Positions 18,553 to 39,505 of a stretch of 44,624 nt of DNA are shown in pieces. Source of the DNA: Gammaproteobacteria bacterium (lineage in GTDB: Bacteria; Pseudomonadota; Gammaproteobacteria; Xanthomonadales; Wenzhouxiangellaceae); assembly GCA_009908385.1 (NCBI GenBank), contig JAAAPE010000013.1, positions 1-44,624 of the forward strand, in the 5' to 3' direction. Positions within the stretch are counted from its first letter, which is position 1. Each line of letters opens with the position of its first letter. Made by a program: the position numbers and the translations under genes. The notes beneath the pieces were generated by a model. It ran no database searches. It saw nothing but the letters and a program-made list of their open reading frames with translations, and was not told the origin of the DNA.

Positions 18553-18581
18553 TTGGTCCCACTTCGTCAAGGTAACGAAAA

Positions 18582-20828: not shown

Positions 20829-21554
20829 TCAGTCAGGAATCCTCGTCAGATAGATTTTCCGCCCGAGTGCGCCATGCCGGTTCAGGTCGGCCAGCACCAC
20901 GAAGCGATCGTTCGCCGCGAGGAACTCGTCGGTAGCCTGCGTGACGCCCGGCCAGGCCGGATGGTGGTAGTCGTCCATCACGATCGTGCCCCCGGAAAGC
21001 ACGTGTCGACTGCACAGCTCCAGATCGAACAGGGCCTGCTCGCGGGAATGACCGCCGTCGATGTGGATGAACCGGAATCGTCGCTCCGGGTCCAGCCGCA
21101 GATCGTTGCTGAAGCACTCGTGAATTTCGACGCGGTCGGCATCGAGCGCCGGCGCGACCCGCCGGATATTGCGCAGCAGCGTTTCGGGGCTGGGTCGCTC
21201 CGCATAGCTGTCTTCGGTTTCCGACTCGAACGCGTCGCAGACGACGAGGCGTTCCCCATCCTCGAGGCAGGCGGCGAGGAGCGCCGTCGAACGGCCATGA
21301 TAGCTGCCGATTTCCAGCAGGTCGCCCTCGAGCCCGAGCAGCGACTGCTGCGCCAGAAGGAGCGAGAAATGGCTGCAGTCGTCGACGTTGAACCAGCCCG
21401 GAATCGGCTTGATGGTTTCGAATATCTCGATCATCGGTCCGGGGGAACCGATGTCCCGAAAGCGCGTCGATTCGCGCAGATAGCCGGCGTGCCCGCGGCC
21501 CTTGAGCCACTTCTTGAGCCGTCTGGGCACGAGGGCCTTGATTGCCTTGCTCAT
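20829..21554 (-). CDS. Class I SAM-dependent methyltransferase (Methyltransf_24 type)
   Basis: A 241-aa protein with a Rossmann-fold methyltransferase core: motif I LLEIGSYHGRSTALLAA (SAM binding), acidic VVCDAFES, then FIHIDGGHSREQALFDLEL and GGTIVMDDYHHPAWPGV. This is the Methyltransf_24 pattern, frequent in surface-glycan loci, where such enzymes methylate sugars or sugar-linked groups. It is the last gene of the polysaccharide operon and ends 28 nt before a bidirectional terminator. The ATG at 21554 is preceded by GGGAG; an upstream frame extension overlaps the next gene and is not coding. The target hydroxyl is unknown; O-methylation of a sugar in the repeat unit is the natural inference. 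Confidence 0.82.
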   Translation of the reverse strand: MSKAIKALVPRRLKKWLKGRGHAGYLRESTRFRDIGSPGPMIEIFETIKPIPGWFNVDDCSHFSLLLAQQSLLGLEGDLLEIGSYHGRSTALLAACLEDGERLVVCDAFESETEDSYAERPSPETLLRNIRRVAPALDADRVEIHECFSNDLRLDPERRFRFIHIDGGHSREQALFDLELCSRHVLSGGTIVMDDYHHPAWPGVTQATDEFLAANDRFVVLADLNRHGALGRKIYLTRIPD

Positions 21555-21576
21555 GCGGTTGTGTTCTCCCTTGAAG

Positions 21577-22686
21577 TCATAGTTGGGCGGCGAAGCGCTC
21601 GAGCGCCCGCTCGGCGCGACCGGCCATCCCCGCCGCCAGCTGCGGCGCCAGGTCACGTACCTCGGCCCGGTAGGCGTCGTCGCTCAGCATACGCTCGATC
21701 ACTCGCGCGGCGGTTTCGACGAACTGCTCGTCTTCGGCGACGAGCAAGCCCGAGCCCTCTCCGATCATCTCGCCGATGCAGCCACGCGCATTGGCAAGAA
21801 CCGGCACGCCGGCTTCGAGCGACTCGATGAGCACCAGCGGCTGGGCCTCGTTGGCATAGCGGGTGGGAAACAGGAACAGGTCCGCGCTTGCCAGAAGCTC
21901 CGACCGCTTTTCCGCGTCGACCGGCCCCAGCCATTCGAACGTGTCGGGACACTCGCTGCTGCAGCGCCTAAGTGAATCCGCCACCGCTTCATCCATGGCG
22001 GGGCCGGCCACACGAAAAACGACCCGCTCGTTGCCCGCGAACCGGCGTGCGAGCGCCAGGATGTCCTCGATGCCCTTCTCGCGCGTGAGATTGGACAGGA
22101 AAACGAGTTCGATCGGCGAATCGCCATCCGGCCCAGCCGGCGACCCCCCGACGGGTGTCTTGCCGGCACCGAAATTGGGCAGGACCTCGAGGCGGGCAGA
22201 GGTCGGATAGAGCGCGGCGCAGGCCGAGCGCATGCGATCGCACAGCAGCAGGTGGCGGCAGCCTCGCCCGGTCAGGCGGAACAGCAGGGCAACGCGACGC
22301 CGGCGCCGGTTGAAATACGAAAAGACATGGTGATGGACGACGACAGGCGTGCCCCACAAGCGCGCCATCGCGGCGAATGCGATGTCGAACCACAGGCCCG
22401 AGCCGTGGTTCGCAACGACGTAGACATGGTCGAAGCAGCGTGACGCCCCGAAGGCCAGGCGCAGGATCCAGCCGAGCGATTTGAGCGCCTTGCCCGAACG
22501 CCCCCTGTTCGATACGGCCGCACCGCCGCTGAGGTCGACCACGGACAGGCTCGCCGAGCGCCCGAGTCGCTCGAGAAAGCGCGACGTCGCGATCGTGCGG
22601 CCGGTCACCGGGGGCGGCAGACTGACCAGGCAGAGCAGCCGGGGCGCGCGACCGCCCGAAGAAGGGTCCGGCTTGGGAGCGCTCAA
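21577..22686 (-). CDS. Glycosyltransferase family 4
   Basis: A 369-aa GT-B fold retaining glycosyltransferase. Visible features are the N-terminal LLCLVSLPPPVTGRT, the C-terminal donor domain beginning IELVFLSNLTREKGIEDIL, and the GT4 EX7E motif in NEAQPLVLIESLEAGVPVLA. It transfers an activated sugar to the lipid-linked repeat unit at the cytoplasmic face. The start is a TTG that shares bases with the stop of the preceding sulfotransferase gene (TTGA) and has GGGGAGG upstream, so it is translationally coupled. It lies directly upstream of the methyltransferase gene. Sugar specificity cannot be told from sequence. Confidence 0.85.
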   Translation of the reverse strand: MSAPKPDPSSGGRAPRLLCLVSLPPPVTGRTIATSRFLERLGRSASLSVVDLSGGAAVSNRGRSGKALKSLGWILRLAFGASRCFDHVYVVANHGSGLWFDIAFAAMARLWGTPVVVHHHVFSYFNRRRRRVALLFRLTGRGCRHLLLCDRMRSACAALYPTSARLEVLPNFGAGKTPVGGSPAGPDGDSPIELVFLSNLTREKGIEDILALARRFAGNERVVFRVAGPAMDEAVADSLRRCSSECPDTFEWLGPVDAEKRSELLASADLFLFPTRYANEAQPLVLIESLEAGVPVLANARGCIGEMIGEGSGLLVAEDEQFVETAARVIERMLSDDAYRAEVRDLAPQLAAGMAGRAERALERFAAQL

Positions 22687-23483
22687 GGGTCGCCGGCCTC
22701 CCCGACCGCGCCGTAACCGAAGCGTTCGGCCACCTCGCCGGCGCGCTCGTAGAGCCGAGCGAGCTGCGCGGCGTCGAGCAGTTCGCGCGACCAGCCGGAC
22801 CGCGCCTTGCCGACGAACTGGTAGCGCCGGTTCTTCAGGTTGGGATCCCCGCGCTCATTCTGCGCGGAGCGCATCCTGTCCTTCGACGAGCGCTGCAGAG
22901 CGATGTCGATCGCTTCCGCGTCCACTGACAGACCCAGTGCCCCGAGCGCGGAGCGCATGGCCGCGACGGGGTCTTCGAGCAGGTCCTCGTAGCGAATCAC
23001 GTGGGCGGCGCGATCGACCCAGCTCTCGTACCAATCGCGCCAGGCATCGACGCCGTAACGCCAGTGGTGCACGAAACGCGGCAGGTCCGGCAGGCGCTTG
23101 CCCGCGGCGCCCGAGAGGTGACGATGGTACGACACGAGGGTATCGGCGGGATCGCGGATCACGACCAGGGCCCGGTAGCGATCGAAGGCCGGGATATGCG
23201 GGAAGTGCGTCTTCAGGAACAGGGGAAAACCGGCCGTTTCGATGCGCCCCTCGAGCTTTCGGTTGCGGCGAATCTCGGGCACGTATCGGCCGATGCTGTG
23301 AAAATCGACGTCCAGGTCGTGATCGCCGATCGATCGCGACAGGTTGGCCAGGATGAAACGCAGCCAGGTATTGCCGGACTTGGGGTAGGAAGCGAGCAGC
23401 ACGTGAGTCGGATCATGAAAAGGCGGTACTTCCAGCCGCGATCGCGCGATCCGCTCCCCGGCGCGGAGCAGGCGGCCGATCAC
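22683..23483 (-). CDS. PAPS-dependent sulfotransferase (1 of 5)
   Basis: A 266-aa Sulfotransfer_1-type enzyme that would move sulfate from PAPS to a sugar hydroxyl. The 5'-phosphosulfate loop is SYPKSGNTWLRFIL (32-45), the 3'-phosphate site is VVIRDPADTLVSYHRHL, and the end has RYQFVGKARSGWSREL, corresponding to the conserved Gly/Lys-rich PAPS motif. The start was set at a GTG that overlaps the stop of the GT2 gene by 4 nt (GTGA). A longer frame from 23576 runs through the GT2 coding region in another frame and was discarded. It is one of five different sulfotransferases in this operon. Its loop motif is nearest to the cytosolic-type family. Confidence 0.88.
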   Translation of the reverse strand: MIGRLLRAGERIARSRLEVPPFHDPTHVLLASYPKSGNTWLRFILANLSRSIGDHDLDVDFHSIGRYVPEIRRNRKLEGRIETAGFPLFLKTHFPHIPAFDRYRALVVIRDPADTLVSYHRHLSGAAGKRLPDLPRFVHHWRYGVDAWRDWYESWVDRAAHVIRYEDLLEDPVAAMRSALGALGLSVDAEAIDIALQRSSKDRMRSAQNERGDPNLKNRRYQFVGKARSGWSRELLDAAQLARLYERAGEVAERFGYGAVGEAGDP

Positions 23484-24382
23484 CGGGCCGCTCCCCCCGA
23501 AGCCCTGCCCCGCGCGCAGGCGACCGCCAGGGCCGCAGCGGCCTTGAAGGTCGGCCGTTCTCGCAGCGAGCGCCACAGCAGCCGGCGGCTGCGGGCCGGG
23601 TCGCTGCCGAGAATCTTCCGCGCGAGGATGCAGTGAGCCCTGGCCCAGTAGTGCGGCAGATGCTGGTCGAGAAAGGGGTAGCGCGCCGCGGCGTTGCGCG
23701 CGAACCGCTGCCGGCTCGAGACGAAGGCGTCTTCGTCGATCCGGGCGGACAGTCCGGCCTCGCGAATGCGTCGGACCACCAGCGGCTGCTCGACCGCGCG
23801 CATCTCGCCGCGCTCCAGCAGCTTGAGGATGAAGTCCGAGTCCTCGCGATGGACGAGGCCTTCGTCGAAGCCTCCGACGGCGAGCGCGTCCGCGCGACGG
23901 AAGAAGAGCGTGGGCGTGATCGCGCTGATCAGGCCGAGAAAGATGCGTCGGACGACTTCCTGCCGCGATCGTCCCGGCCGGAAGCGGTTGATCCGCTTCC
24001 GTCGCCCGGACGGAAGTTCTTCGATGGTCCAGGTGGCGCAGACGGCCAGTCCGCCGCCCTCTTCCCGGAACATCCGCAGCTGGGCGTCCAGGCGTCCGGG
24101 AAGCATCAGGTCGTCGGCATCGAGCAGCGCGATGTGGTCACCCTTCGCCGCTTCGATCGCAAGGTTCCGGCAGGCCGCAGGACCGCGGTTTCTTTCCTGC
24201 GGCAGCACGATCACGCGTTCGTCGTCTGAAAAGGCAGCCAGTGCAGCAAGCGTATCGTCGGTGGAGGCATCGTCGACCACGATCACCTCGAGGGCTTCGT
24301 CGACCTGCTGGGCCAGGCAGCTTTCCACGCTCTCCACGATGAAGCCGGAGCAGTTGTAGGCCGGAACGACGACGCTGATCAC
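23480..24382 (-). CDS. Glycosyltransferase family 2
   Basis: A 300-aa GT-A fold inverting glycosyltransferase. It has the N-terminal ISVVVPAYNCSGFIVESV, VIVVDDASTDDTLAAL, and the nucleotide-sugar/metal motif ALLDADDLMLPGRL, followed by HREDSDFILKLLERG, an ED-type acceptor/catalytic region. It works at the cytoplasmic face on the growing repeat unit. The start codon is GTG, overlapping the upstream sulfotransferase stop by 4 nt (GTGA). It is flanked on both sides by sulfotransferases, which suggests stepwise glycosylation and sulfation, though the order of events is inference. Confidence 0.9.
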   Translation of the reverse strand: MISVVVPAYNCSGFIVESVESCLAQQVDEALEVIVVDDASTDDTLAALAAFSDDERVIVLPQERNRGPAACRNLAIEAAKGDHIALLDADDLMLPGRLDAQLRMFREEGGGLAVCATWTIEELPSGRRKRINRFRPGRSRQEVVRRIFLGLISAITPTLFFRRADALAVGGFDEGLVHREDSDFILKLLERGEMRAVEQPLVVRRIREAGLSARIDEDAFVSSRQRFARNAAARYPFLDQHLPHYWARAHCILARKILGSDPARSRRLLWRSLRERPTFKAAAALAVACARGRASGGAAR

Positions 24383-25431
24383 GCGCCGCGCTCCGGCCGG
24401 GGACCGCGTCCGGGACGCGAGCCGACCATCGAACGGAGTTTTCCCCAGTAGCGCTTGTCGCCCGACAGGAGACGCAACAGCAGCCTGGCGGCCCTTCTCG
24501 CCAGACGCGCGATGCGCCTGGCGCGCCAGGCGAGCAGCACCTGCCAGCGACTTACCGCCCCGGCCCGGTCGACCGGACCGTATCCCAGTTGCGCGAGCCG
24601 GTCACCGAGCACCACCTCGATCGCCCGACGCTCGCGCGGCGTGATTTCCGATCGCCAGGAGTGCGCCCGCTCGCGATCCGGATCCTCGGCGACCCGGCTG
24701 TGAAGCGCCCTCTCCTCCCGCGGCAGCTGAGTGGCCAGCGCGCCGGTCTGTGAGCGCTTGCGGTCGTGGATGCCAAGGAATTCGAGCACCCGCCCGGTAC
24801 AGTCGTCGGTCGATGCGAGCACGTCTTCGTAGCGAAGGTCGAGCCATCGATCGGGATCGGCCCGCTCCGACTCCCGCATCGCGCGATGCCACTGCTCGGC
24901 CGTGTCGAGCGGACTGGTGCTGAACGCCGAACCCGTGTAGGGATTGATCGATCGTTTCTGCGACGCGTAGACGGCGCGCGGATCGCGATGCAGGTGAATC
25001 ACCCTGAAATCCGGAAAGGCCGCCAGCAGCTCGCGACCGTCCCAGGGCATGGCGGGGCTGCCCTTGTAGAGGCAGACCGAGCTTTCGGGGGCATGCTCGC
25101 GACGATAGGCCTCCATCAGGCCGCGCACGAGCTCGCGGCCGGTCAGGCCCGGCAGCCGATCGCGCAACTGCTCGACCACGGTCTCGCAGTCCAGTCCCCA
25201 TGACGGCAGCTTGGAATACGCGGAGATTTCGCCCAGATAGTCGAGCAACTCGTCGGCGCTTTGGAAGATCGGGTTCTCGTACGCGCCGAGCCCGAACAAT
25301 TCCTTGGGGAGATTCGCTTCGACGCACACGCAGATGGCCTCGTAACGGCTCAGAAGCTCGCCCAGCATCGTCGACCCCGAGCGGCTGACGTAGGCGAGAA
25401 AACCGTACCGGATGGTCGTGGGCCCGGTCAT
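24379..25431 (-). CDS. PAPS-dependent sulfotransferase (2 of 5)
   Basis: A 350-aa sulfotransferase with the 5'-phosphosulfate loop AYVSRSGSTMLGELL near residue 13 and the 3'-phosphate motif IHLHRDPRAVYASQKRS near 145-160. The N-terminal Ser/Arg-Ser-Gly-Ser loop and the long C-terminal basic tail (rich in Arg, about 295-345) resemble the Sulfotransfer_3 group rather than the one at 22683. The ATG start is joined to the stop of the preceding gene as TGATG. The basic tail may bind membrane or the acidic product; that is inference. Confidence 0.87.
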   Translation of the reverse strand: MTGPTTIRYGFLAYVSRSGSTMLGELLSRYEAICVCVEANLPKELFGLGAYENPIFQSADELLDYLGEISAYSKLPSWGLDCETVVEQLRDRLPGLTGRELVRGLMEAYRREHAPESSVCLYKGSPAMPWDGRELLAAFPDFRVIHLHRDPRAVYASQKRSINPYTGSAFSTSPLDTAEQWHRAMRESERADPDRWLDLRYEDVLASTDDCTGRVLEFLGIHDRKRSQTGALATQLPREERALHSRVAEDPDRERAHSWRSEITPRERRAIEVVLGDRLAQLGYGPVDRAGAVSRWQVLLAWRARRIARLARRAARLLLRLLSGDKRYWGKLRSMVGSRPGRGPRPERGA

Positions 25432-26261
25432 CAGTAACCGTACCGGCGATTGAGCCAGGAAGCGCCAACGGCGAAGAGCAGTTTCTGCCAGGGGCTCAGC
25501 CGCCGCCGCCAGCTCTCATCGAGTTCAAGCCGAATCGCGCTCGACTGCGCGTATCGCCAGCCGTTTCCGCCGATGTCGTGGCAATCGTGCATGCCGTCTT
25601 CGAGCATCGCGGGGTCGAATTCCAGACCGACGAAGCCGCAGATTCTCGCGAGCTCTGATTCGGGATCCCGCACGAAGTCCTCGTATCGAACCCGCATCAG
25701 GCGATCGGGAGGCAGCCGCGCGTCCTGCCGGGAATACTCGAGGTTCGTGGCGAGCCATCGGCCGATGGCCTTCACCGCCGAAACCGGTTCCTGCACTTCG
25801 GGCCGCACCGTGCTGTGCTTCACCGGCTTGGTGCGCGAACGCAGGTAGCCGCGACCGTCACGAACCAGATGGATCACGTAGAGATCAATGTCCTCACGCC
25901 GCTTGAGGCGATCGAGGTCGGCCACGGTCTTGGAGCTGTCGACGATGACCCTGCAGCCGGTGCGGTCACGCACGGCCTCGATCACCTCCGACAATTCCTC
26001 GTCGCCAAGCCGGGTCGCGCTCTCGCCGCTCTCGCCGCTCTCTGCCCTGCGCCGGCCTGCCAGCCCGGCCGCGATGTCGCGCCAGAACTCGCAGGCGGAA
26101 ACCGGCCGGCCGCAGGTACAGGGCGCATCACGCGCGATCCACTCCGGCAGGAATTTCAGTTCCCCCACGCTGACCATTCCGGGATGGGCATTGAGAAACA
26201 CCGACAGCAGGGTCGATCCGCTACGGCCGCAGCCGCCGATGAACAGCACGCGGGTCTTCAT
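25431..26261 (-). CDS. PAPS-dependent sulfotransferase (3 of 5)
   Basis: A 276-aa sulfotransferase. The N-terminus has VLFIGGCGRSGSTLLSVFLN (PAPS loop), then GELKFLPEW and a CTCGRPVSACEFWRDI segment; this CxCG-type motif recurs in one bacterial sulfotransferase group. The 3'-phosphate motif is VIHLVRDGRGYLRSRTKP. The ATG at 26261 begins 7 nt after the galE stop; 19 codons of open frame upstream overlap galE and are not conserved. The stop overlaps the next sulfotransferase start. Two adjacent, clearly different sulfotransferases suggest two acceptor positions rather than a recent duplication. Confidence 0.87.
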   Translation of the reverse strand: MKTRVLFIGGCGRSGSTLLSVFLNAHPGMVSVGELKFLPEWIARDAPCTCGRPVSACEFWRDIAAGLAGRRRAESGESGESATRLGDEELSEVIEAVRDRTGCRVIVDSSKTVADLDRLKRREDIDLYVIHLVRDGRGYLRSRTKPVKHSTVRPEVQEPVSAVKAIGRWLATNLEYSRQDARLPPDRLMRVRYEDFVRDPESELARICGFVGLEFDPAMLEDGMHDCHDIGGNGWRYAQSSAIRLELDESWRRRLSPWQKLLFAVGASWLNRRYGY

Positions 26262-26268
26262 GATCGAC

Positions 26269-27270
26269 TCAGCCGAAAGCGCGGCCCGCGGCCAGCTTCT
26301 GCTCCCACTGCCAGGCATGGTGCAGGATGTCGTCGATCGATTCGAACTTCGGACGCCAGCCCAGCAAGTCGGACGCGATGCCGCTGCCGGCGACCAGCCT
26401 TGCGGGATCGCCCGGACGCCGCTCGGCCGACACGACGGGGATCTCCCGATCCGTGACGCGCCGGGCGGCCTCCACCAGCTCGAGCACGGACGTCCCGGAT
26501 CCGGTGCCGAGATTCAGGGTCATCGACTCGCCGCCGTCGAGAAGCCGCTCGAGCGCGAGCAGGTGGGCTTCGGCCAGGTCGTTGACGTCGATGTAGTCGC
26601 GGATGCAGGTGCCGTCGGGCGTCGGATAGTCGTTTCCGAACACGTGGATCGCCTCGCGCCGTCCGGAAGCGACCTGCAGCACCAGGGGAATCAGGTGGGT
26701 TTCGGGGTCGTGCGCCTCGCCGATGCGCGCTTCCGGGTCGGCGCCGGCGGCGTTGAAGTAACGCAGCGTTGCGTGCCTCAACCGGCCGGCGGCGGAAAAG
26801 TCCTCCAGCATGCGCTCGATCGCCAGCTTGGTGGCGCCGTAGGGATTGACCGGTTCACGCGGATGGTCCTCTTCGAGCAGCTCGGTGCGGGGCTCGCCGT
26901 AGACGGCGCAGGTGCTCGAAAAGACGATCGCGTCCAGGCCTGCGCGGACCAGGGCCTCGACGAGGGTCAGGCTGCCGACGACGTTGTTGCGGTAGTAGGC
27001 GCCCGGATCGGAGACCGACTGCGCCACCAGGCTCGACGCCGCAAAATGCATCGCCGCCGCCGGCCGGTGCCGGGCGATCACGTCGGCGAGCCTGGGCGCG
27101 TCGAGAATATCGCCCTCCTCGAGCGGCCCCCACTGGACGGCCTCGCGGTGGCCCGTGCGGAGGTTGTCGAAGGTTACCGGGACGAAGCCGCGCTCGTGGA
27201 GCGACCTGCAGACGTGGCTGCCGATGTAGCCGGCGCCGCCGGTGACGAGAATGCACGGGGTTTGGCTCAT
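26269..27270 (-). CDS. galE: UDP-glucose 4-epimerase
   Basis: A 333-aa extended SDR enzyme that interconverts UDP-glucose and UDP-galactose. It has the NAD-binding GGAGYIGSH (residues 10-18), FDNLRTGH, AASSLVAQSV, the catalytic Ser/Thr in FSSTCAVYGEP, YGATK (the YxxxK pair), RYFNAAGADPEARIGE, and DGTCIRDYIDV. Length and motif set are those of genuine GalE. The start ATG overlaps the stop of the GDP-mannose epimerase-like gene by 4 nt (ATGA). It would supply UDP-D-galactose (or UDP-GalNAc) to the locus glycosyltransferases. Confidence 0.93.
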   Translation of the reverse strand: MSQTPCILVTGGAGYIGSHVCRSLHERGFVPVTFDNLRTGHREAVQWGPLEEGDILDAPRLADVIARHRPAAAMHFAASSLVAQSVSDPGAYYRNNVVGSLTLVEALVRAGLDAIVFSSTCAVYGEPRTELLEEDHPREPVNPYGATKLAIERMLEDFSAAGRLRHATLRYFNAAGADPEARIGEAHDPETHLIPLVLQVASGRREAIHVFGNDYPTPDGTCIRDYIDVNDLAEAHLLALERLLDGGESMTLNLGTGSGTSVLELVEAARRVTDREIPVVSAERRPGDPARLVAGSGIASDLLGWRPKFESIDDILHHAWQWEQKLAAGRAFG

Positions 27271-28247
27271 GCCTTGCCGCGGGCCGCCTCGACCTGGTCG
27301 CGAATCCATTCGTAGGTGACCTGCAGGCCTTCCTTCAGCGGCCGGCTCGGCGCCCAGTCGAGCTTCTCGCGAATCAGCCGGTTGTCGGAATTGCGTCCGC
27401 GCACGCCCTCGGGGCCGGGCACGTGGCGCAGCTCCAGCTGCTTGCCCGAAATCGACATGATCATGTGGACCAGCTCGTCGATGCTGACCATTTCCTCCGA
27501 GCCGATGTTGACCGGCCCGCTCCAGTCCGAGCGCATCAGGCGCAGTGTTCCTTCCAGGCACTCGTCGACATAGAGGAAGGAACGCGTCTGCTTCCCGTCG
27601 CCCCAGATCTCGACATCACCGCCCTCCGGTGCCTCCGCCACTTTCCTGCACAGGGCGGCCGGCGCCTTCTCGCGGCCATCGTTCCAGCTGCCTTCGGGAC
27701 CGAAGATGTTGTGATAGCGGCCGATGCGGACTTCCATGCCGTGATTGCGCTGGTAGGCCAGGAAAAGGCGCTCGCTGAAGAGCTTCTCCCAGCCGTATTC
27801 ACTGTCGGGATCGGCGGGATAGGCCGAGTCCTCGGCCGTCTTGGGATTGCCGGGGTCCATCTGGTTGTACTCGGGGTACATGCAGGCCGAGGAAGAATAG
27901 AAGATCCGGCGGCAGTTTCGCCGGTGTGCGGCATCGAGCACATTGAGGTTGATGCTGGCCGAGTTGTGCATGATGTCGGCATCGTTCTCGCCGGTGAACA
28001 CGAATCCCGCACCGCCCATGTCGGCGGCGAGCTGGTAGATCTCGTCGAAGCTCCGGTCGATGATCGACCGGCAGAATCCCGCGTCCCGCAGGTCGCCGAC
28101 GACGAAATCATCGGCGTGCGTGGCCGCGTAACGGGGGAACTTGAGGTCCACGCCGCGCACCCAGAAGCCCTCGCGCTTCAGGCGCTTGACCAGGTGGCTG
28201 CCGATGAAGCCGCCGGCTCCGCAGACAAGCGCTGTTTTCTGCTGCAT
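27267..28247 (-). CDS. GDP-mannose 3,5-epimerase homologue
   Basis: A 326-aa extended SDR closely patterned on plant GDP-mannose 3,5-epimerase (GME), which makes GDP-L-galactose (and GDP-L-gulose). The sequence has GAGGFIGSHLVKRLKREG, YQLAADMGGAGFVFT, SSSACMYPEYNQ with Cys122, EYGWEKL with Tyr151/Lys155, GRYHNIFGPEGSWNDGREKA with Lys194, WGDGKQTRSFLYVDEC, and GPEGVRGRNSDNRLI. The Cys and Lys that do the epimerisation chemistry in GME, as well as the SDR Tyr/Lys, are all present. GME-like genes are unusual in bacteria. Beside galE it suggests a glycan with L-galactose as well as D-galactose. A different 3,5-epimerised GDP-sugar is possible. Confidence 0.85.
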   Translation of the reverse strand: MQQKTALVCGAGGFIGSHLVKRLKREGFWVRGVDLKFPRYAATHADDFVVGDLRDAGFCRSIIDRSFDEIYQLAADMGGAGFVFTGENDADIMHNSASINLNVLDAAHRRNCRRIFYSSSACMYPEYNQMDPGNPKTAEDSAYPADPDSEYGWEKLFSERLFLAYQRNHGMEVRIGRYHNIFGPEGSWNDGREKAPAALCRKVAEAPEGGDVEIWGDGKQTRSFLYVDECLEGTLRLMRSDWSGPVNIGSEEMVSIDELVHMIMSISGKQLELRHVPGPEGVRGRNSDNRLIREKLDWAPSRPLKEGLQVTYEWIRDQVEAARGKA

Positions 28248-28262
28248 GTCAGTGTTTCTCCT

Positions 28263-29444: not shown

Positions 29445-29446
29445 GC

Positions 29447-31625: not shown

Positions 31626-32944
31626 GGCTTCGCCCTCCCCAGCCACAGCAGGCCGGGTACGATACGCAGGCGCCGCCAGGCAACGACCGACAACCAGGTG
31701 TTCCACACGAGTGTCGAGAGGATCATGGCCCAGGCGGCCCCCGCTGCGCCGTATTCGGGAATCAGGATGACGGACAGCACGATGCTCAGCACGGCGGCCG
31801 CGGCCATTCCGTGACTGGCCTGCCTCTCCAGCCCGCCGACGTTCAACAGCAGGCCCACCGGGCCGAACAGGGTATTGAGCAACTGGCTCACGACCAGCAG
31901 GCGAAGCGTCAGTTCCCCACCCGCGAAGCCTTCACCGAATCGCGTCAGGACGAACTCGCTGAAGACGAACACGAGGATGGCGAAGGGCGCGATGGCCGAG
32001 AGCGAATAGACGATTCCCCGGCGCAGGTATTCCTGCACCTGGTCGGTCTGCCCCTGCGAAAGCAACCTCGAAATGATCGGCATGAGCGGCATGTTGACGG
32101 CTGCCATGAAGATCAGCAGGGCCTCGGAAATCCTCACGCCCAGGGCGAAGACGCCCGTTTCGGCCTCCGTGCTGAGCAGGCCCATGACGATGATGCCAGA
32201 CTGAGCGAGCAGGACCGTCATGCCCGCGAACAGCAGCATGTGTGTCGCGCTCCGCAGCCACTCGGCGGCATGCGACTCGCTCCGCTCCCGCCACAGACCC
32301 GTCGGTAGCGCCTTCCACAGCCACCACGTTCCGATGGCCAGCGACGCGACGCCCGCCAGGATCTGCAGCAGGATCGCTTCCATGGCGCCGGGCCGGCCGG
32401 GCAGCCACAGCAGGTAGGCGCCGAGCAGCAGCAGCAAGACTGCCGGCCGGATCACGAGTTCCGGCAACTGCGCTTTCGACACCGCCCGCATGCCGCGCAA
32501 CGCGCCGTTGCGGATCTTCGAAAAAGCCCGAAGCGGCACCATCAGCATGGCGAGGCAGAGCACGACCATCAGCTGCTGCCGTTCGGGAGAGGAATAGACG
32601 AGCCAGGCCAGGAGCGCGCCGGCCAGGGCCAGCAGCGTCGAGACGACCAGAACGGTCCGGCCCGAAAACGACAGAAGGCCGCGAATACGCGCCCGGCGAT
32701 CTCCTTCGATACCGTTCGACAACTCGCGCAGCAACAGCGTGGGAAACCCGAGGGCAGCGAGCATGGCCAGTAGGGTGACCCAGGAGATCGCGATCGAATA
32801 GGCGCCGAATCCTTCCGAGCCGAGCACGCGGGCGAAGACCAGCGTCACGGCGAGGCCCAGGAACCGCCCCATGCCGTTGATCGCCAGCGCACTGAGCGAC
32901 CCGCGCCGCATGAAGCGGCGATCCGCCGACTGGCTGTCGCTCAT
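31622..32944 (-). CDS. Wzx-type polysaccharide flippase
   Basis: A 440-aa polytopic protein (12-14 hydrophobic segments) of the MOP superfamily. It has the N-terminal RGSLSALAINGMGRFLGLAV, FARVLGSEGFGAYSIAIS (typical first loop), RELSNGIEGDRRARIRGLLS, ALRGMRAVSKAQLPELVIRP and VGLLLNVGGLERQA. It moves the undecaprenyl-linked repeat unit across the inner membrane. The ATG at 32944 overlaps the adjacent sulfotransferase stop (ATGA), and the stop overlaps the polymerase GTG start. Placement between the initiating transferase and the polymerase fits a Wzx/Wzy-dependent pathway. Confidence 0.88.
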   Translation of the reverse strand: MSDSQSADRRFMRRGSLSALAINGMGRFLGLAVTLVFARVLGSEGFGAYSIAISWVTLLAMLAALGFPTLLLRELSNGIEGDRRARIRGLLSFSGRTVLVVSTLLALAGALLAWLVYSSPERQQLMVVLCLAMLMVPLRAFSKIRNGALRGMRAVSKAQLPELVIRPAVLLLLLGAYLLWLPGRPGAMEAILLQILAGVASLAIGTWWLWKALPTGLWRERSESHAAEWLRSATHMLLFAGMTVLLAQSGIIVMGLLSTEAETGVFALGVRISEALLIFMAAVNMPLMPIISRLLSQGQTDQVQEYLRRGIVYSLSAIAPFAILVFVFSEFVLTRFGEGFAGGELTLRLLVVSQLLNTLFGPVGLLLNVGGLERQASHGMAAAAVLSIVLSVILIPEYGAAGAAWAMILSTLVWNTWLSVVAWRRLRIVPGLLWLGRAKP

Positions 32945-33813
32945 GCGCCGGCCCGCTCGCCGCAGGCACGCCTGTCCGCCGGTACATCGAACCACGGCCA
33001 CTCGGCGGTCAGGTTGCGTCCCGCGAGGTCGTCGAGGCCGGCAAGTCGCGACCGGTAATGGTCCTCGATCCAGGCGACGAGCGTCGGGTCCGGCGGCCGT
33101 TCAATCGATTTCCGCTTGTCGAGCAGCAGCCCCGCCGCCGGACGCAGGGCATTGACCAGGCGATCCAGCCTTCGATCCCGCAACCACCGGGCCAGCCTGA
33201 CCCCGCCTTTCCAGAGCCAGCGCGACCGGGGCGGCCGGCTCACGTTGACGGGCTCGGAACCCGTTTCGCGGAACGGATCACCTGAAACCTCCAGAAAGCT
33301 CGCCAGGCGTTCGAGCTCGGCCGAGCCGGGAGCGTGCATCGCTTCGTGGGAAAGCACCAGCAGCCGGCCGGATCGAATCCAGCCGCCCAGGCGTTCGAGA
33401 TGCCGGGCATAGTCACCCCAGTCGAGCGCCTCGGGGTAGGCTTCCAGGAACGCCTTGAGGTCGCCCCGGAAGCCGTCCTGGCGAACCCGCCAACGGTAGT
33501 GCGAAACGAGGCGCTCGACCGGATCCCGAAGCACGACGACCAGCTGCCTGATCGACGGCACCGACTCGATCCGGGCCGCCAGGTCCTCGACGTAGAGGTA
33601 GCCGGGCGTCACCTCACCGATACGGCGGTGACCGGCCAGCCCTTCGAAGTACGAGGCGTACCAGGCCGTACCGCGCGAGAAATTGCGATCGAAGAAGTGC
33701 AGCTCCTTGCGCCGGCGGGGAACGCCCACCTCGGGATGGGCGCTCAACGCCTCGTGCAGCCAGGTCGTTCCCGCGCGGGGCACCCCGATCACGAGAAAGT
33801 CGGGCAGCGTCAT
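32941..33813 (-). CDS. PAPS-dependent sulfotransferase (5 of 5), heparan-sulfotransferase-like
   Basis: A 290-aa sulfotransferase with 5'-phosphosulfate loop LVIGVPRAGTTWLHEALSAH (about 7-26), KELHFFDRNFSRG, GEVTPGYLYVED, and the 3'-phosphate motif VVVLRDPVERLVSHYRWRV. The K-E-x-HFFD and x-E-x-TPxYL patterns are those of the heparan-sulfate/glycosaminoglycan sulfotransferase group, distinct from the other four here. The ATG at 33813 begins that conserved N-terminus; upstream open sequence was discarded. A 102-nt gap separates it from the initiating transferase; nothing was seen in the gap. Acceptor unknown, though similarity of type suggests a polysaccharide. Confidence 0.88.
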   Translation of the reverse strand: MTLPDFLVIGVPRAGTTWLHEALSAHPEVGVPRRRKELHFFDRNFSRGTAWYASYFEGLAGHRRIGEVTPGYLYVEDLAARIESVPSIRQLVVVLRDPVERLVSHYRWRVRQDGFRGDLKAFLEAYPEALDWGDYARHLERLGGWIRSGRLLVLSHEAMHAPGSAELERLASFLEVSGDPFRETGSEPVNVSRPPRSRWLWKGGVRLARWLRDRRLDRLVNALRPAAGLLLDKRKSIERPPDPTLVAWIEDHYRSRLAGLDDLAGRNLTAEWPWFDVPADRRACGERAGA

Positions 33814-33915
33814 GGCGCCGTTTTCAGTACTCGAATCGATGGGGCATTCTCGGTAGGCCGGGGAACCACGACGGCGCACCGCGGGCGCGGCAGGCAGGCG
33901 CGGAACCGGCGGGCA

Positions 33916-35313
33916 TCAATAGGCGTTCTTCTGGATGATCCCGGGCATCATGGTCATCAGGATGATCTTCAGGTCGAACCACAAGGACCAGTTCTCGATG
34001 TAGTAGAGGTCGTACTCGATGCGCTTGACCAGGTCGGTGTTGCCGCGCCATCCGTTGACCTGCGCCCAGCCGGTGATGCCCGCCCTGACGAGGTGCTTCT
34101 GCATGTAGTCGGGAATCTCCTGCTTGAATCGCTCGACGAAGACCGGGCGCTCCGGTCGCGGACCGACGATGGACATGTCGCCCTTGAGCACGTTGAAGAA
34201 CTGGGGCAACTCGTCGAGACTCGTCCTGCGCAGGAAGGCACCGAACCGGGTCGGTCGATTGTCGTCCTGGGACGCCCACCGCGGCCCGGACTCCTGCTCG
34301 GCATCGACCGGCATGCTCCGAAACTTCAGCATTTCGAAGGATCGCCCGTTCCAGCCCACACGTTCCTGGCGGTAGAACACCGGTCCCCTGGAACTCAGCT
34401 TGACGCCGATCGCGATGAGCAGCAGCAGGGGCGAGATGAAAATCAGGATCAAGGCCGACAGGACGCGATCCTCGATGGTCTTGATCACGAAATTGACCGG
34501 AAAGGTCATGGGGGATTCGGTGATGTTGAGCATCGGGAACCCGGCAATGCTGGTGATCGAATGGTTGATCAGCCGCAGATCGGTCATGTCGGGCACGAAG
34601 CGGATGGTCACGGTGTGATCGCGCAACCGCTCCATGATGCGCTTCAACTGGTGCTGTTCCTCGAGCGGCAGGGCCACCCACACCTCCTGGCAGCCGGTCG
34701 ACTCGACGATCGATTCGAGCTCGTCGAAGCCGCCATGGGCCATATCCTCGAATTCCGATGCCAGTGATTCGGCCCCGGCACCCACGACCCCGCGGATCTG
34801 GAAACCGGTCCAGTCGTTCTCGCCGAATCGGCCCATGAGCCTGCCGCCGAGATCACCCGACCCGACGACGACGACCGGGCGCTGGGACCAGGCCCGCTGC
34901 CCCAGGAATCGCAGGAACCTGCGAAGCGCCGCGTGCGCCACGACCAGTCCGATGCTGGCGAAGATGATCCACAGACCCATCCAGACGCGGGAATAGACCG
35001 CCGTGACCTTGACCATGGCCGACAGCACGATGAGCAACCCGGCGACGACTGCCCAGGCGACGAGCACCCGCAACAGTTCGTCGAGCAATCCGAACCGACG
35101 CCAGAGCTGGTGGACGTCGAACAGCCAGAACACGACGAGCACGAGCAGGGCCGCCGCGGCGATCGCTTCGCGATAGTCGTCGTTGAGCGGCCAGCGGTCC
35201 AGGTACAACCAGTAGGACAGCAGACAGCCGCCCAGGATGACGGCCAGGTCGACCAGGAATACGACGAAGAATATGAGGGTGTTCTGTTCCCGGAACTTGC
35301 TGAACGGTTTCAT
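33916..35313 (-). CDS. Undecaprenyl-phosphate sugar-1-phosphate transferase (WcaJ/WbaP type)
   Basis: A 465-aa polyprenyl-phosphate hexose-1-phosphate transferase, the length of WcaJ. It starts repeat-unit synthesis by moving Glc-1-P or Gal-1-P from the UDP-sugar to undecaprenyl phosphate. It has four N-terminal membrane segments, a Rossmann-like region with PVVVVGSGDLGGRLMGRFG, a fifth membrane-embedded segment SALILIFISPLLLLIAIGVK, then the catalytic domain with GPVFYRQERVGWNGRSFEM, LKFRSMPVDAE, RRTSLDELPQFFNVLKGDMS, IVGPRPERPVF and GITGWAQVNGWRG. Start ATG overlaps the upstream stop (ATGA). Whether glucose or galactose is used cannot be decided; GalE in the locus makes both possible. Confidence 0.92.
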   Translation of the reverse strand: MKPFSKFREQNTLIFFVVFLVDLAVILGGCLLSYWLYLDRWPLNDDYREAIAAAALLVLVVFWLFDVHQLWRRFGLLDELLRVLVAWAVVAGLLIVLSAMVKVTAVYSRVWMGLWIIFASIGLVVAHAALRRFLRFLGQRAWSQRPVVVVGSGDLGGRLMGRFGENDWTGFQIRGVVGAGAESLASEFEDMAHGGFDELESIVESTGCQEVWVALPLEEQHQLKRIMERLRDHTVTIRFVPDMTDLRLINHSITSIAGFPMLNITESPMTFPVNFVIKTIEDRVLSALILIFISPLLLLIAIGVKLSSRGPVFYRQERVGWNGRSFEMLKFRSMPVDAEQESGPRWASQDDNRPTRFGAFLRRTSLDELPQFFNVLKGDMSIVGPRPERPVFVERFKQEIPDYMQKHLVRAGITGWAQVNGWRGNTDLVKRIEYDLYYIENWSLWFDLKIILMTMMPGIIQKNAY

Positions 35314-36755
35314 GAATCGGGTTCGTTGCGCGTTGGGCTCTCGGCCCGGCCTTTCGGCCGGAGCGTCGCGGTGACCAATGCCGGCAGGGTCATGACGGCG
35401 AGAATCGCGAGAGGGAGAAAGGCACGGTGCGTGATCTGGGTGGATTCAATGGCCGCTCCACGGCTGGTCAGAACAAAGGCCGCGAAGAGAAAGCAGGCGC
35501 CGAGCGCCGCGAGCAGCCAAGCCGCGCGAGCCCCGGCGTCCCGAATCGCGGCGGGAATGCCGATCATGTAGACGATTACGCAAGCGGGCCATAGAAAATG
35601 CCAGTTGCCGCCCTGGAGGAGTTGCCCCAGGATGACGGCGAATACCCGATTGAACTGCCAGTCGTACTGCCCGATCACCGGGAGGTCGAAGCCCGCGGTG
35701 GACAGCGCGACCCGCCCTGCCCCGGGAATGCGCAGGTCGACCCCGATCAGGAGCACGACGGCCAGCGCCACGAACGCGCCCGCCACGAGCAGGCCGGTCA
35801 CGCGCGCAGGCAGGAGGTAGGCTAACACGCCGCCCAGGACGACAAGCATCCAGGCCGCGCCGGGGACCTTGATCCAGGCACACACCACTCCGAACACGGC
35901 TGCGATCAGCACCCAGCGCAGCTGCCGCAGTGATGCAGCCAGCATAAGGCTGCCCGCCGCCGCCCCGACGTAGGCGCCCAGCCAGAGGTCGGCGTAGCCG
36001 GGCAACGCGGCGTGCACGTGCACGAAAGGCAGCGATACCAGCAGCCAGGCCGTCAGCAAGGCGGCAAGCGGACTGAAACCGGAAAATCTCGCCGTGCCGT
36101 AGGCCGCTGGCACCAGGGCTACGAATACCGCGATCCAGGGATAGCCGAAGGTCACGGGATCCCAGCGTTCAAGCGGCAGGAGCACCCAGGTCTGCACCAG
36201 CGGCACGAATTCCGGGTAGGACCAGTTCCGGATGGTGTAGGCCGACCGACTGGCGTCGTTCAGCCACCCCGAGCGCGAGACGAACTCCAGCCACTGGCCG
36301 GTCTCGATCCAGACCTTGGCCTTGGGCGACCAGTGCATCCAGCCATCCCAGGCGTACAGGGGCCGCAATCCGGCCTCCAGGCCCACCAGCAGCACTCGCG
36401 CCAGGACCCAGGCCGCGAGCGCAATCAACAGGCCGACTTGCCAGCGGCCGGCGCCTGACATCCAGGCCCGCAGTCCGCCGGCCGAATCCGTTCCAGCAGC
36501 ACGACGGCGACCCTGGAACAAGGCCGCTGCCGAGAGGGCAACGAGGATTCCGGCCACCGGAAGCCAGTGCATGCCCAGACCCAGGATCCGGAACCCGGCG
36601 ACCAGGGCGACGGTCAGGGCCATGCCCGCGAAGAATCCGTAACCGAGCTGCACGGCCAGGTGGGCGTCGCTGCGACCGGGCAACAGCAGACGGACGACCA
36701 GGGCACCGGCCAGCCATGAAAGCGCGATCGAGACGACGGGCAACAGCGCGTTCAT
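35310..36755 (-). CDS. Polytopic membrane protein, probable GT-C type glycosyltransferase
   Basis: A 481-aa integral membrane protein with roughly 10-12 hydrophobic segments. Between segments is a conserved-looking periplasmic stretch RPLYAWDGWMHWSPKAKVW with SGWLNDASRSAYTIRNWSYP, including the acidic and aromatic residues usual in the first loop of GT-C (GT39/PMT-like) enzymes. I do not recognise a specific family. Its place beside the initiating transferase, with ATGA overlaps at both ends, suggests a lipid-linked-sugar-dependent transferase that decorates the polymer on the periplasmic side. The ATG at 36755 was chosen because the next 28 upstream codons lie inside the preceding gene. An alternative is a non-enzymatic component of polymer export. 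Confidence 0.6.
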   Translation of the reverse strand: MNALLPVVSIALSWLAGALVVRLLLPGRSDAHLAVQLGYGFFAGMALTVALVAGFRILGLGMHWLPVAGILVALSAAALFQGRRRAAGTDSAGGLRAWMSGAGRWQVGLLIALAAWVLARVLLVGLEAGLRPLYAWDGWMHWSPKAKVWIETGQWLEFVSRSGWLNDASRSAYTIRNWSYPEFVPLVQTWVLLPLERWDPVTFGYPWIAVFVALVPAAYGTARFSGFSPLAALLTAWLLVSLPFVHVHAALPGYADLWLGAYVGAAAGSLMLAASLRQLRWVLIAAVFGVVCAWIKVPGAAWMLVVLGGVLAYLLPARVTGLLVAGAFVALAVVLLIGVDLRIPGAGRVALSTAGFDLPVIGQYDWQFNRVFAVILGQLLQGGNWHFLWPACVIVYMIGIPAAIRDAGARAAWLLAALGACFLFAAFVLTSRGAAIESTQITHRAFLPLAILAVMTLPALVTATLRPKGRAESPTRNEPDS

Positions 36756-37984
36756 GGATGCGGACTGCAGACCCGGTAGACCTGTGCGAAACCTTCGTCC
36801 ATCAACCGTGTCGCGCAGATCCGGCCGCGATTCGCCCACGACAGGACGCTGTTCTCCCGGTCATGGCTGACGGCGGCCGGGTTCTCGAGGACGACCACGA
36901 GATCGCCGGGCGAGGCGTGTCGCCTGAGCAGCCAGAAACGGGCCGCCAGGTTGAACGGGTTTTCCGGAAACAGGTGAAAGGTCAGCCGCTCGATGAGAAA
37001 GCGGCTGTCGGGACGATCCGAGATCAGGAAGACCGCGCGCCCATCGGCACCGTCCGCCTCCCGAATGCGCCGGGCGAGCTGGTAGATGGGACCGTAGCGT
37101 GCGTCGAGCAGCCGCTCGGCCGCAATCTTTCCGGCGTGGGTCTCCCAGGTCAATCGGGACTGGGCCGCCTGATCGAGCATCCAGCGGGCATCCAGCAGCA
37201 GCCAGGAAAGGGCCACCATCGCCACAAGCCCGGACAGCCTCGAGCGACCGGGGGCACGCCGTGAGATCAGCAGGAAGATCCCGACGGCCAGCAGGGTGGC
37301 GATGAAAACGACCACGGCCAGCGGCAAGCTGCCGTTGTGGGAGTCGAGAGAATGCGAATTGATCGACCGCAGGCTCCACGGCTCGATCGACCACCAGTCC
37401 GACCAGTGCCAGCGCAGCCGCGACCAGGCCGAATCGCCGTGCAATTCCAGCGCTTCGACCGTCATGGCCGAGTCGAGCGGCCCCTCGATCAGTACGCCCA
37501 GCTCGAAGACCGTGCCTCCCCAACCCGGGCGGTCACCGAGCCTGGCGAAGGCACCGCCCGGGCCGAAGGGAATCGACGTGGGCCTTGCAGGCTCATCCGT
37601 GCCGGCCTGCTGCCAGAAGAAGCGCAGCGACGTGTCGGTTCCCTGCCGGATGCAGTCGCAGCGCACGAAGCCATAGCCGGAAACGTCCACCTGGGTCGGC
37701 CCCAGCACAAGGAATCCGAAGCCGCTTTCGCCCAGGTACTCCTGACGGCCCGGATTGGGCTCGAGCCCGGTGATCGTCAAGGAATCGCCGTCGCGGGTGG
37801 CCCTTACCTGCTGCGCCCGGAGATCAGCCCCGGCAATGCGAAGCGGCTCTTCGGGAAAGAGCTGGCCACTGGCGAACCACGCCATTCCCGTGATCGCCAG
37901 CGCGGCCAGGACGTAACCGGCCAGCAATGCCGAAATGCCGGCAAGCACTACTGGCATCCAGCCCTGCTCGGGCAAGTCTCTCAC
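36752..37984 (-). CDS. Unknown membrane protein of the polysaccharide operon
   Basis: A 410-aa protein I cannot assign to a family. It has one N-terminal membrane segment (about 10-37), a beta-rich, probably periplasmic domain (about 45-215, rich in Gly, Trp and aspartate, e.g. YGFVRCDCIRQ and FGPGGAF), two further membrane segments (about 222-242 and 252-270), and a C-terminal soluble domain with AERLLDARYGPIYQLARRI and VFLISDRPDSRFLIERL. The start is GTG with GGAGG 8 nt upstream; the next ATG is nine codons in. The gene is 42 nt downstream of the wzz-like gene and overlaps the GT-C-like gene by 4 nt. A carbohydrate-binding role for the periplasmic domain is a guess based on composition and context. 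Confidence 0.55.
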   Translation of the reverse strand: MRDLPEQGWMPVVLAGISALLAGYVLAALAITGMAWFASGQLFPEEPLRIAGADLRAQQVRATRDGDSLTITGLEPNPGRQEYLGESGFGFLVLGPTQVDVSGYGFVRCDCIRQGTDTSLRFFWQQAGTDEPARPTSIPFGPGGAFARLGDRPGWGGTVFELGVLIEGPLDSAMTVEALELHGDSAWSRLRWHWSDWWSIEPWSLRSINSHSLDSHNGSLPLAVVVFIATLLAVGIFLLISRRAPGRSRLSGLVAMVALSWLLLDARWMLDQAAQSRLTWETHAGKIAAERLLDARYGPIYQLARRIREADGADGRAVFLISDRPDSRFLIERLTFHLFPENPFNLAARFWLLRRHASPGDLVVVLENPAAVSHDRENSVLSWANRGRICATRLMDEGFAQVYRVCSPHP

Positions 37985-38026
37985 CGGCGCGGCCTCCGAG
38001 GCCGCGCTGCCGAAGCATGCCCGATA

Positions 38027-39256
38027 TCAGCGCCCGCGCTTCTCACTCTCGTACTGTGACCTGGCGGCGCGCGCGAGACTGATCAGTCCGGCGACGAGCA
38101 GCGCGGCCACCAGCCCGACGAACGCGGCCAGCACGAGCAGGTTGCGCGAGCTGACGTCGACCGGCCGCAGCGAACGGCGCGGTTCGATCAGGGCCCGTGA
38201 CACCTGGAGGCTGTCCAGGTAGGAACGCACTTCCTGCACGCGCGGCCGTTGCCGCGCCACGGCGCGTTCCTGGTCGACGAGGAGCTTGTCCAGCTCCGCC
38301 TGGAATTCTTCGACCTGCTCCGCCTGGACCAGCTGTTCCCGCCTCGCTTCCGCCAGCTGGTTCTCGAGTCGGGCGCGCTCGTTGGGAATATTTACCGCCA
38401 GGGCCTCCTCGAGCTGGGCCTGCCTTTCGATGTCCTCCTGCAGGGAGCTGCTGATCAGCATGAGCGTCATGCCGTCAGCGCCGGAACCGGCGTCTTCGAC
38501 CGCCGAAGTCCTGCTTGCTCGAGCCTCTTCGATGTAGCGATCCAGCTCGGGCAACCGGGCCTCGATCAGGGACTGCCTGGATTCCAGGGAGGCCAGCTGT
38601 CTCTCGATCAGCCGCTCGGAATCGGCCAGTTTCTCGATCTGCGCCTGTGCCTGGCCGATCTTGTTCTCGAGGCGCTTGCGTGCCACGCGCTGCACGCGCT
38701 CATCCTCGAGTTCCTCGAGTGCGATGGCCGCAAGCTCCAGCTCCTTCTCCAGACGGGTCTTTTCGAGCTCGAACTCCTGTCGCTGGTCGTTGGCCAGCAT
38801 CCTCAGGACGCGTTCGTGAAGCCGCTTGATCGAATGTGAATTCGCGGCGGTCCCCGCGGACGAAAGCAGGACCAGGCTGGTGTCGGTGAGCGGACGGGCG
38901 ATCAGCCTGACCCCCGGCACCTCGCCGTTTTCCGCTTCCAGTTCGGCTGCCCAGCGCTCGATCGCCGTCGGGATGAAGCTGTTGTTCAGCTTCGCGATGA
39001 CGGCCTCGACGGGCTCGAGCGTCTGGGCGGTATCCTCGGACTGGTACCAGCCGAGCTCGATAGTCGTCGTGAACTCGTAGACGCGCTCGCGGCCCAGCGC
39101 ATAGGCAAGTGCCAGGGCCACCGACAGGCCGACGACGATCAGCAGGACGAATTTCTGGGACCACAGGAAAAGCGCCAGATCGACCAGGGTGAGCCCCCCG
39201 GCCTCCGTATCGCCGTCCCTCCTCCGGGACCCGGGCTCATGACGTTCTTCGGTCAT
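38027..39256 (-). CDS. Wzz-type chain-length determinant (polysaccharide co-polymerase)
   Basis: A 409-aa inner-membrane protein that would set polymer length with the Wzy polymerase. Topology is as expected: a cytoplasmic N-terminus, TM1 at about 34-54 (FVLLIVVGLSVALALAYAL), a long periplasmic part of heptad-rich helices (about 145-340), a Pro/Arg segment IEPRRSLRPVDV, and TM2 at about 370-392. No Walker motifs or tyrosine cluster follow TM2, so it is not a Wzc-type kinase fusion. It is the first gene of the leftward operon, so the operon promoter should lie in 39257-39395. That region has two AACCGGCC direct repeats (39331 and 39345) and only weak promoter matches. The ribosome site GGAGG is 13 nt from the ATG, unusually far. 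Confidence 0.85.
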   Translation of the reverse strand: MTEERHEPGSRRRDGDTEAGGLTLVDLALFLWSQKFVLLIVVGLSVALALAYALGRERVYEFTTTIELGWYQSEDTAQTLEPVEAVIAKLNNSFIPTAIERWAAELEAENGEVPGVRLIARPLTDTSLVLLSSAGTAANSHSIKRLHERVLRMLANDQRQEFELEKTRLEKELELAAIALEELEDERVQRVARKRLENKIGQAQAQIEKLADSERLIERQLASLESRQSLIEARLPELDRYIEEARASRTSAVEDAGSGADGMTLMLISSSLQEDIERQAQLEEALAVNIPNERARLENQLAEARREQLVQAEQVEEFQAELDKLLVDQERAVARQRPRVQEVRSYLDSLQVSRALIEPRRSLRPVDVSSRNLLVLAAFVGLVAALLVAGLISLARAARSQYESEKRGR

Positions 39257-39395: not shown

Positions 39396-39423
39396 CCAAA
39401 AGCCTGATTTATAGGGCTTTTGG
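39396..39423 (-). terminator. Rho-independent terminator of tRNA-Leu(UAG)
   Basis: On the minus strand: CCAAAAGCC - loop of 10 - GGCTTTTGG, with the T-run in the 3' arm of the stem. Its 5' arm begins in the CCA end of the tRNA. It separates the tRNA from the polysaccharide operon in the same direction, unless read-through feeds that operon. Confidence 0.7.
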
Positions 39424-39505
39424 TGCCGAGGAGAGGACTCGAACCTCCACGGGTTGCCCCACCTGGACCTAAACCAGGCGCGTCTACCAATTCCGCCACC
39501 TCGGC
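39421..39505 (-). tRNA. tRNA-Leu (anticodon UAG)
   Basis: Class II tRNA: acceptor GCCGAGG/CCTCGGC with encoded CCA, D arm TGGCGGAATTGGTAGACGCG, anticodon stem CCTGG/CCAGG with loop TTTAGGT (anticodon TAG), long variable arm, T arm GGAGGTTCGAGTCCTCT. Length 85 nt. Confidence 0.97.

Follow-up and report, generated by a model that had tools for sequence, protein, structure and literature searches.

Sulfated polymers are described as rare in bacteria outside the cyanobacteria (PMC8205485, PMC13390465). In the available parts of the report on synechan from Synechocystis PCC 6803, the plasmid-borne xss cluster, which has its own regulators, combines Wzx, Wzy and polysaccharide co-polymerase (PCP) genes with two sulfotransferases of distinct subfamilies and eight glycosyltransferases, the gene for outer-membrane polysaccharide export (OPX) is not in the cluster, and the product has roughly two sulfates for every eight sugars (PMC8205485). 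Here we describe a comparable locus in a gammaproteobacterium of the family Wenzhouxiangellaceae (GCA_009908385.1; 2.94 Mb in 155 contigs, 85% complete). The window, i.e. the whole analysed stretch of 44,624 bases, is one entire contig (JAAAPE010000013.1, C90) and contains a 17-gene operon that quite probably makes a Wzx/Wzy-type polymer sulfated in the cytoplasm by five sulfotransferases, with 3'-phosphoadenosine-5'-phosphosulfate (PAPS) from the local cysDNC genes. In contrast to synechan, the operon encodes five sulfotransferases, three cytosolic glycosyltransferases and an L-sugar epimerase, and is adjoined by cysDNC.

Other described systems share parts of this make-up, as far as the accessible portions of their reports go. 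Actinoplanes missouriensis wps-1 resembles the operon in its Wzx, Wzy and Wzz proteins, a methyltransferase and sulfotransferases of different families, one of them of the heparan-sulfate type, but it has two sulfotransferases and a Gram-positive host, and sulfation of its product is likewise unproven in that account (PMC13390465). The capsule loci of Vibrio KMM 8419 and Cobetia KMM 1449 also combine PAPS-synthesis genes with sulfotransferases in a polysaccharide region, but they are ABC-transporter capsules of 70-80-gene regions, and their sulfated products were determined chemically (PMC11641403, PMC11766843); in Vibrio KMM 8419 three sulfotransferase genes are scattered over the 80-gene region (PMC11641403). 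A putative glycosaminoglycan (GAG)-like cluster of Pontiella sulfatireligans likewise holds glycosyltransferases, a methyltransferase and a sulfotransferase, but only this one sulfotransferase, and sulfated exopolysaccharide (EPS) was measured there (PMC7356697). Genes for sulfotransferases, glycosyltransferases and export have also been noted in two gammaproteobacterial orders, in genomes from Shark Bay mats (PMC9723792). A preliminary description of the window, which named bacterial polymers with one sulfotransferase and knew of no described locus of exactly this make-up, gave an incomplete account of known loci, since Wzx/Wzy loci with two sulfotransferases (PMC8205485, PMC13390465) and the Vibrio region with three (PMC11641403) exist. 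In the open-licence literature, cyanobacterial supplementary gene maps being outside its scope, we found no description of a Wzx/Wzy locus with five.

Five divergent sulfotransferases are predicted within one polysaccharide operon

The single leftward, tightly packed 17-gene set of the preliminary description was borne out: the ORF (open reading frame) listing and Pfam gave 17 consecutive minus-strand ORFs at 20829-39256, each of which, at its maximal extent, overlaps the next except at three gaps of 15, 36 and 42 bp (Table 1). A Pfam family could be given to 15 of the 17, the Wzz assignment among them being weak. The five sulfotransferases of that description, each with its own variant of the PAPS loop, were confirmed as well. 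All five (ST1-ST5) exceed a Pfam sulfotransferase cut-off and carry both PAPS motifs, namely the 5'-phosphosulfate binding motif (5'-PSB; PKSGNT, SRSGST, GRSGST, PKSGTH and PRAGTT) and the 3'-phosphate binding motif (3'-PB) R-D-x6-S. Membrane segments were predicted in none of the five, which are therefore expected to act in the cytoplasm.

Mutual divergence of these enzymes is very high, the best pair, ST2 and ST3, reaching 27% over 89 amino acids (aa; E about 3e-6). By their PDB sequence relatives, ST1, ST3 and ST5 fall in different subfamilies. The nearest relatives of ST1 are cytosolic sulfotransferases (SULTs; SULT1C3, E 5e-9), and the KTH histidine of its KTHFP motif (His124) is kept, while those of ST3 are polyketide-synthase sulfotransferases (4gox, E 8.5e-16). 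ST5 is nearest to heparan-sulfate 3-O-sulfotransferase 3A1 (HS3ST3A1, E 1.6e-19), and its Glu59 aligns with the family's glutamate, which we take to be the catalytic base. No PDB sequence relatives were found for ST2 and ST4, and structure prediction of ST4 without an alignment yielded an unusable AlphaFold model (mean predicted local distance difference test, pLDDT, 37.8). That five non-identical enzymes imply several sulfation positions, as proposed earlier, is a fair inference, to which the subfamily differences among ST1, ST3 and ST5 add support.

Sulfotransferases are concentrated in the operon. Eight places were found in the 85%-complete genome, five of them inside the operon's 18.4 kb, and the chance that at least five of eight fall in 18.4 kb is 5e-10. 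A plasmid search with ST3 matched 80 records, 74 of which come from Sinorhizobium, with identities under 60% throughout, and a search with CysNC gave distant relatives only. With the operon, five divergent predicted glycan sulfotransferases become available from a single pathway, including the one that resembles heparan-sulfate 3-O-sulfotransferase.

PAPS synthesis genes share a variable tRNA-Leu site with the operon

The preliminary description had missed the PAPS genes, a tRNA-bracketed variable site and a GDP-mannose 3,5-epimerase. The cysD and cysNC genes lie about 10 kb from the operon inside the same site, bordered by two tRNA-Leu genes whose 3' ends both point into the enclosed interval of 31,751 bp. 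CysNC, given in Table 1 as the maximal ORF with its conserved part ending near 9860, is the only match to adenosine-5'-phosphosulfate (APS) kinase found in the genome. Between cysDNC and the operon, the plus strand encodes an M23 peptidase and four S74-domain proteins.

In relatives, the site was located between an M3 peptidase gene and an acyl-CoA dehydrogenase/glutamate dehydrogenase gene pair. The M3 gene was found in 23 of 30 genomes of the genus, and 15 of the 23 were assessable. The site is empty in seven (G007, G012, G014, G017, G019, G023, G026), the tRNA-Leu pair being 131-1004 bp apart. Three others hold cysDNC without visible polysaccharide genes: in G029 the site is complete, its tRNAs being 3,129 bp apart with cysDNC alone in the interval, and in G003 and G008 the contigs stop beyond cysNC. 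Both cysDNC and a sugar/sulfotransferase locus are present in five, with five sulfotransferases in the window's own genome, four in G024, three in G018 (within 62 kb) and one each in G027 and G011; G027 has one further candidate below the cut-off. The left tRNA of G024 lies outside the stretch examined, and the contig of G011 ends. G018 and G027 were scanned by family for sulfotransferases only, their other genes being BLAST matches, and no match to the window Wzx was found in either.

The G024 locus encodes, besides its sulfotransferases, Wzx, a weak Wzy_C, two glycosyltransferases (GTs) of family GT4, two methyltransferases, a UDP-glucose dehydrogenase and a Wzz scoring above the cut-off, and its S74, M23 and cysDNC genes stand in the same order as in the window. 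The genus thus has more than one polysaccharide locus with many sulfotransferases and nearby PAPS genes, and the sugars differ between them. The site shares with integrative genomic islands a position next to tRNA genes that is vacant in relatives; no integrase or recombinase was matched by Pfam among the genes scanned at 7.9-39.3 kb. In the other genera covered, neither cysDNC nor the dehydrogenase pair was found next to the M3 gene (G030, G031, G033, G034, G035, G061-G065).

G017 was considered as a locus-bearing site and rejected, its tRNA pair, 131 bp apart, being empty. On its contig C31, cysNC, cysD and a GT-C-like gene pair occur at 70.9-79.7 kb, with M3 standing between them and the empty tRNA-Leu pair; the module may therefore move or invert. 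In addition to a full cysDNC, G027 has at the margin of its site (C1:1524530-1526260; L063 4531-6261) a frame of 577 aa, part of which resembles APS kinase and matches CysNC with 39% identity over 250 aa.

Predicted sugars and assembly of the polymer

The epimerase encoded at 27267-28247 matches plant GDP-mannose 3,5-epimerase in the PDB with 351 bits, the next family reaching 110 bits, and no NCBIfam model passes for it. It keeps the GxxGxxG NAD motif (G10-G16), the YxxxK motif (Y151/K155) and the catalytic residues C122, K194 and R285. The catalytic Cys, Lys and Arg are named in the available part of the report on the bacterial enzyme MfGM35E, in which they are the same and which, in that account, is not tied to a sulfated polymer, whereas the window epimerase sits in a sulfotransferase operon (PMC6678494). 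This enzyme should bring L-galactose or L-gulose into the product, and D-galactose is likely because GalE is also encoded. Orthologues of about 70% identity are rare, occurring in 3 of 101 relatives and, across the class, in 6 of 369 genomes, the own genome being included in both counts. In G011, of the same genus, the epimerase and one sulfotransferase stand together in a polysaccharide locus at the same chromosomal site. As a general marker of sulfated loci the epimerase was rejected, since none of six other epimerase neighbourhoods outside the genus (G059, G133, G220, G264, G272, G283; 12-20 kb each) gave a sulfotransferase hidden Markov model (HMM) match. G283 has three equal-scoring epimerase matches (C1:1913802, 1935201, 1956600) spaced by 21,399 bp, either a triplicated segment or an assembly artefact.

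Among the gene classes named earlier, Wzx, Wzy_C, the initiating transferase, two GT4 and one GT2 stood; the Wzz-like protein scores below the cut-off, and its 42%-identical homologue in G024 passes PF02706 with 38.3 bits. The "probable GT-C" is a motif assignment, for which family or PDB support was not found. Its motifs PWDAW and GYADLW are conserved in an 11-sequence family in the genus, and among 43 genomes of the bacterial family the protein was found in 12, all in this genus. Neither the protein nor its family profile matched Pfam or the PDB, the protein had no NCBIfam match, and structure prediction without an alignment gave an unusable model (mean pLDDT 49.0). The two-transmembrane-segment protein adjoins the GT-C-like gene in relatives too, and the pair constitutes a family without a Pfam match.

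From these genes the following pathway can be proposed. The WcaJ-type enzyme would put glucose-1-phosphate on the undecaprenyl carrier, and three glycosyltransferases would extend this primer with sugars probably including D-galactose (GalE) and L-galactose or L-gulose, the GT-C-like enzyme perhaps adding later, in the periplasm. In the cytoplasm, the five PAPS-dependent sulfotransferases, of presumably different acceptor specificity, would sulfate the unit with PAPS supplied by CysD and CysNC, whose genes lie 10 kb from the operon between the same pair of tRNA-Leu genes, and the methyltransferase would add a further mark. Wzx would then flip the unit, Wzy polymerise it and the Wzz-like protein set the length, and the sulfated polymer would perhaps be passed to lipid A-core as O-antigen. 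By extrapolation, reckoned as for synechan, a repeat unit of four or five sugars would bear as many as five sulfates; we infer the acceptors, the number of sulfates, the sugar identities and the attachment.

Table 1. Features predicted in the operon and its tRNA-Leu site (TM, transmembrane segments)
Feature	Position	Strand	Evidence
tRNA-Leu (cag), left border of variable site	7583..7669	+	ARAGORN
CysNC, sulfate adenylyltransferase subunit 1 / APS kinase	7962..10268	-	NCBIfam PRK05506 996 bits (cut-off 715)
CysD, sulfate adenylyltransferase subunit 2	9860..10975	-	NCBIfam TIGR02039 520 bits (cut-off 397)
Methyltransferase (Methyltransf_24)	20829..21656	-	Pfam 65.7 bits
GT4 glycosyltransferase	21577..22686	-	PF00534 70.5 bits
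ST1 sulfotransferase, cytosolic-SULT-like	22683..23576	-	PF00685 67.8 bits
GT2 glycosyltransferase	23480..24382	-	PF00535 114.5 bits
ST2 sulfotransferase	24379..25431	-	PF13469 79.1 bits
ST3 sulfotransferase, polyketide-synthase ST / tyrosyl-ST-like	25431..26318	-	PF13469 87.7 bits
GalE, UDP-glucose 4-epimerase	26269..27270	-	NCBIfam TIGR01179 410 bits (cut-off 262)
GDP-mannose 3,5-epimerase (GME; GDP-L-galactose / GDP-L-gulose)	27267..28247	-	PDB GME 351 bits
GT4 glycosyltransferase (second)	28263..29507	-	PF13439 37.5 bits
ST4 sulfotransferase, most divergent	29447..30313	-	PF00685 33.4 bits (cut-off 22)
Wzy-type polymerase (Wzy_C)	30285..31706	-	PF04932 48.3 bits (cut-off 31.7); 10 TM
Wzx-type flippase	31622..33001	-	PF01943 70.7 bits; 11 TM
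ST5 sulfotransferase, heparan-sulfate 3-O-sulfotransferase-like	32941..33879	-	PF00685 56.2 bits
Initiating undecaprenyl-phosphate glucose phosphotransferase, WcaJ type	33916..35313	-	NCBIfam TIGR03023 511 bits (cut-off 411)
Polytopic membrane protein, GT-C-like by motif only	35310..36839	-	509 aa, 10 TM
Two-TM partner protein, family unassigned	36752..37984	-	410 aa; 6-sequence alignment
Wzz-like chain-length protein	38027..39256	-	PF02706 19.8 bits, below cut-off 25.5
tRNA-Leu (tag), right border of variable site	39421..39505	-	ARAGORN

Alternative explanations

The sulfated Wzx/Wzy polymer of the preliminary description is well supported, and more strongly so because cysD and cysNC adjoin and related loci of the genus share its make-up. 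What the sequence shows is the genes with their families, catalytic motifs and order, and the co-occurrence of cysDNC. Several points weigh against this reading: ST4 is the weakest-supported sulfotransferase; the 3,5-epimerase is not generally tied to sulfation; contigs were too short to judge the site in 8 of the 23 genomes with the M3 gene (G005, G010, G013, G016, G020, G022, G025, G028); and of the five locus-bearing genomes two, G018 and G027, have OPX genes, far from the site. The last point bears on a less likely alternative, in which the sulfated polymer forms a capsule or is released as exopolysaccharide, OPX being missing from the assembly or another outer-membrane route being used. 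This would also fit the initiating enzyme, which passes the exopolysaccharide subfamily TIGR03025 as well (498 versus 296 bits), and synechan, whose OPX gene likewise lies outside its cluster in the available account (PMC8205485). However, no match to OPX (Poly_export, PF02563) was found in the own genome, whose completeness of only 85% limits this negative, or in the locus-bearing G011 (99% complete) and G024 (97% complete), OPX is absent in 8 of 13 genus genomes searched, and the Wzz-like protein had no other Pfam domain and no kinase match in Pfam. Because no OPX was found and the Wzz-like protein lacks a kinase match, transfer to lipid A-core as O-antigen is possibly more likely than a secreted capsule. 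It is also conceivable, at a similar tentative level, that fewer than five sulfotransferases act on the polymer, some being inactive, redundant or modifying other molecules. ST4 has a low score and no close relative, and one of the two synechan sulfotransferase mutants was not visibly altered in the part of the report available (PMC8205485). Nevertheless, all five ORFs are intact, carry both PAPS motifs and are packed among glycan genes with little or no spacing.

The cysDNC genes are also the general sulfate assimilation route and are required for cysteine, and their position may be historical. The tRNA-Leu site would then be a general insertion point at which cysDNC landed first, an explanation that agrees with cysDNC alone between the tRNAs in G029 and without visible polysaccharide genes in G003 and G008. 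We consider such an accident rather unlikely, since cysDNC is present at all five sites with a locus and at none of the seven empty ones, and an additional APS-kinase-like ORF lies inside the G027 site. Comparing the five of five sites with a locus to the 3 of 10 without gives a figure of 0.019, which is only a guide because the genomes are mutually related and several were first chosen for having sulfotransferases, a further point on the negative side. That lipids or small molecules are the substrates, the sulfotransferases having no more than the region in common with a polysaccharide locus, appears very improbable: the nearest solved relatives of ST3 are indeed polyketide-synthase sulfotransferases, but the sulfotransferase genes are interleaved with flippase, polymerase and glycosyltransferase genes, the nearest relatives of ST5 act on heparan sulfate, and G024 has a similar gene mixture.

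Neighbouring genes

The four tandem plus-strand genes at 12664-20750 encode secreted proteins that carry a Peptidase_S74 (endosialidase chaperone) domain at the C-terminus; pairs of them share about 45-64% identity over parts of their length, and a single relative stands at the same place in G024. The M23 peptidase ORF (9938-12520, plus strand) overlaps cysD on the opposite strand, and its true start is probably near 10980 because its only hydrophobic segment begins there. A "sulfatase" role for the minus-strand gene at 42647-44440 by PF00884 was set aside because the match is marginal (27.3 bits versus 25) and the protein has five membrane segments. Its five helices are predicted at the N-terminus, and the usual sulfatase motif C/S-x-P-x-R was not seen by eye; it may therefore be a phosphotransferase.

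Significance

As a speculative and rather doubtful extension, the tRNA-Leu site may hold an exchangeable "sulfation cassette" joining PAPS synthesis to a polymer locus, here for a lipopolysaccharide (LPS) whose O-antigen consists of galactose and L-galactose and bears roughly one sulfate for each sugar, as a bacterial counterpart of algal and ascidian sulfated galactans. Through the 3,5-epimerase, a way by which L-galactose may enter a bacterial polymer can be put to the test. Together, the window locus and its same-site relatives with one, one, three and four sulfotransferases point to a genus that swaps sulfated-glycan loci together with sulfate-activation genes.

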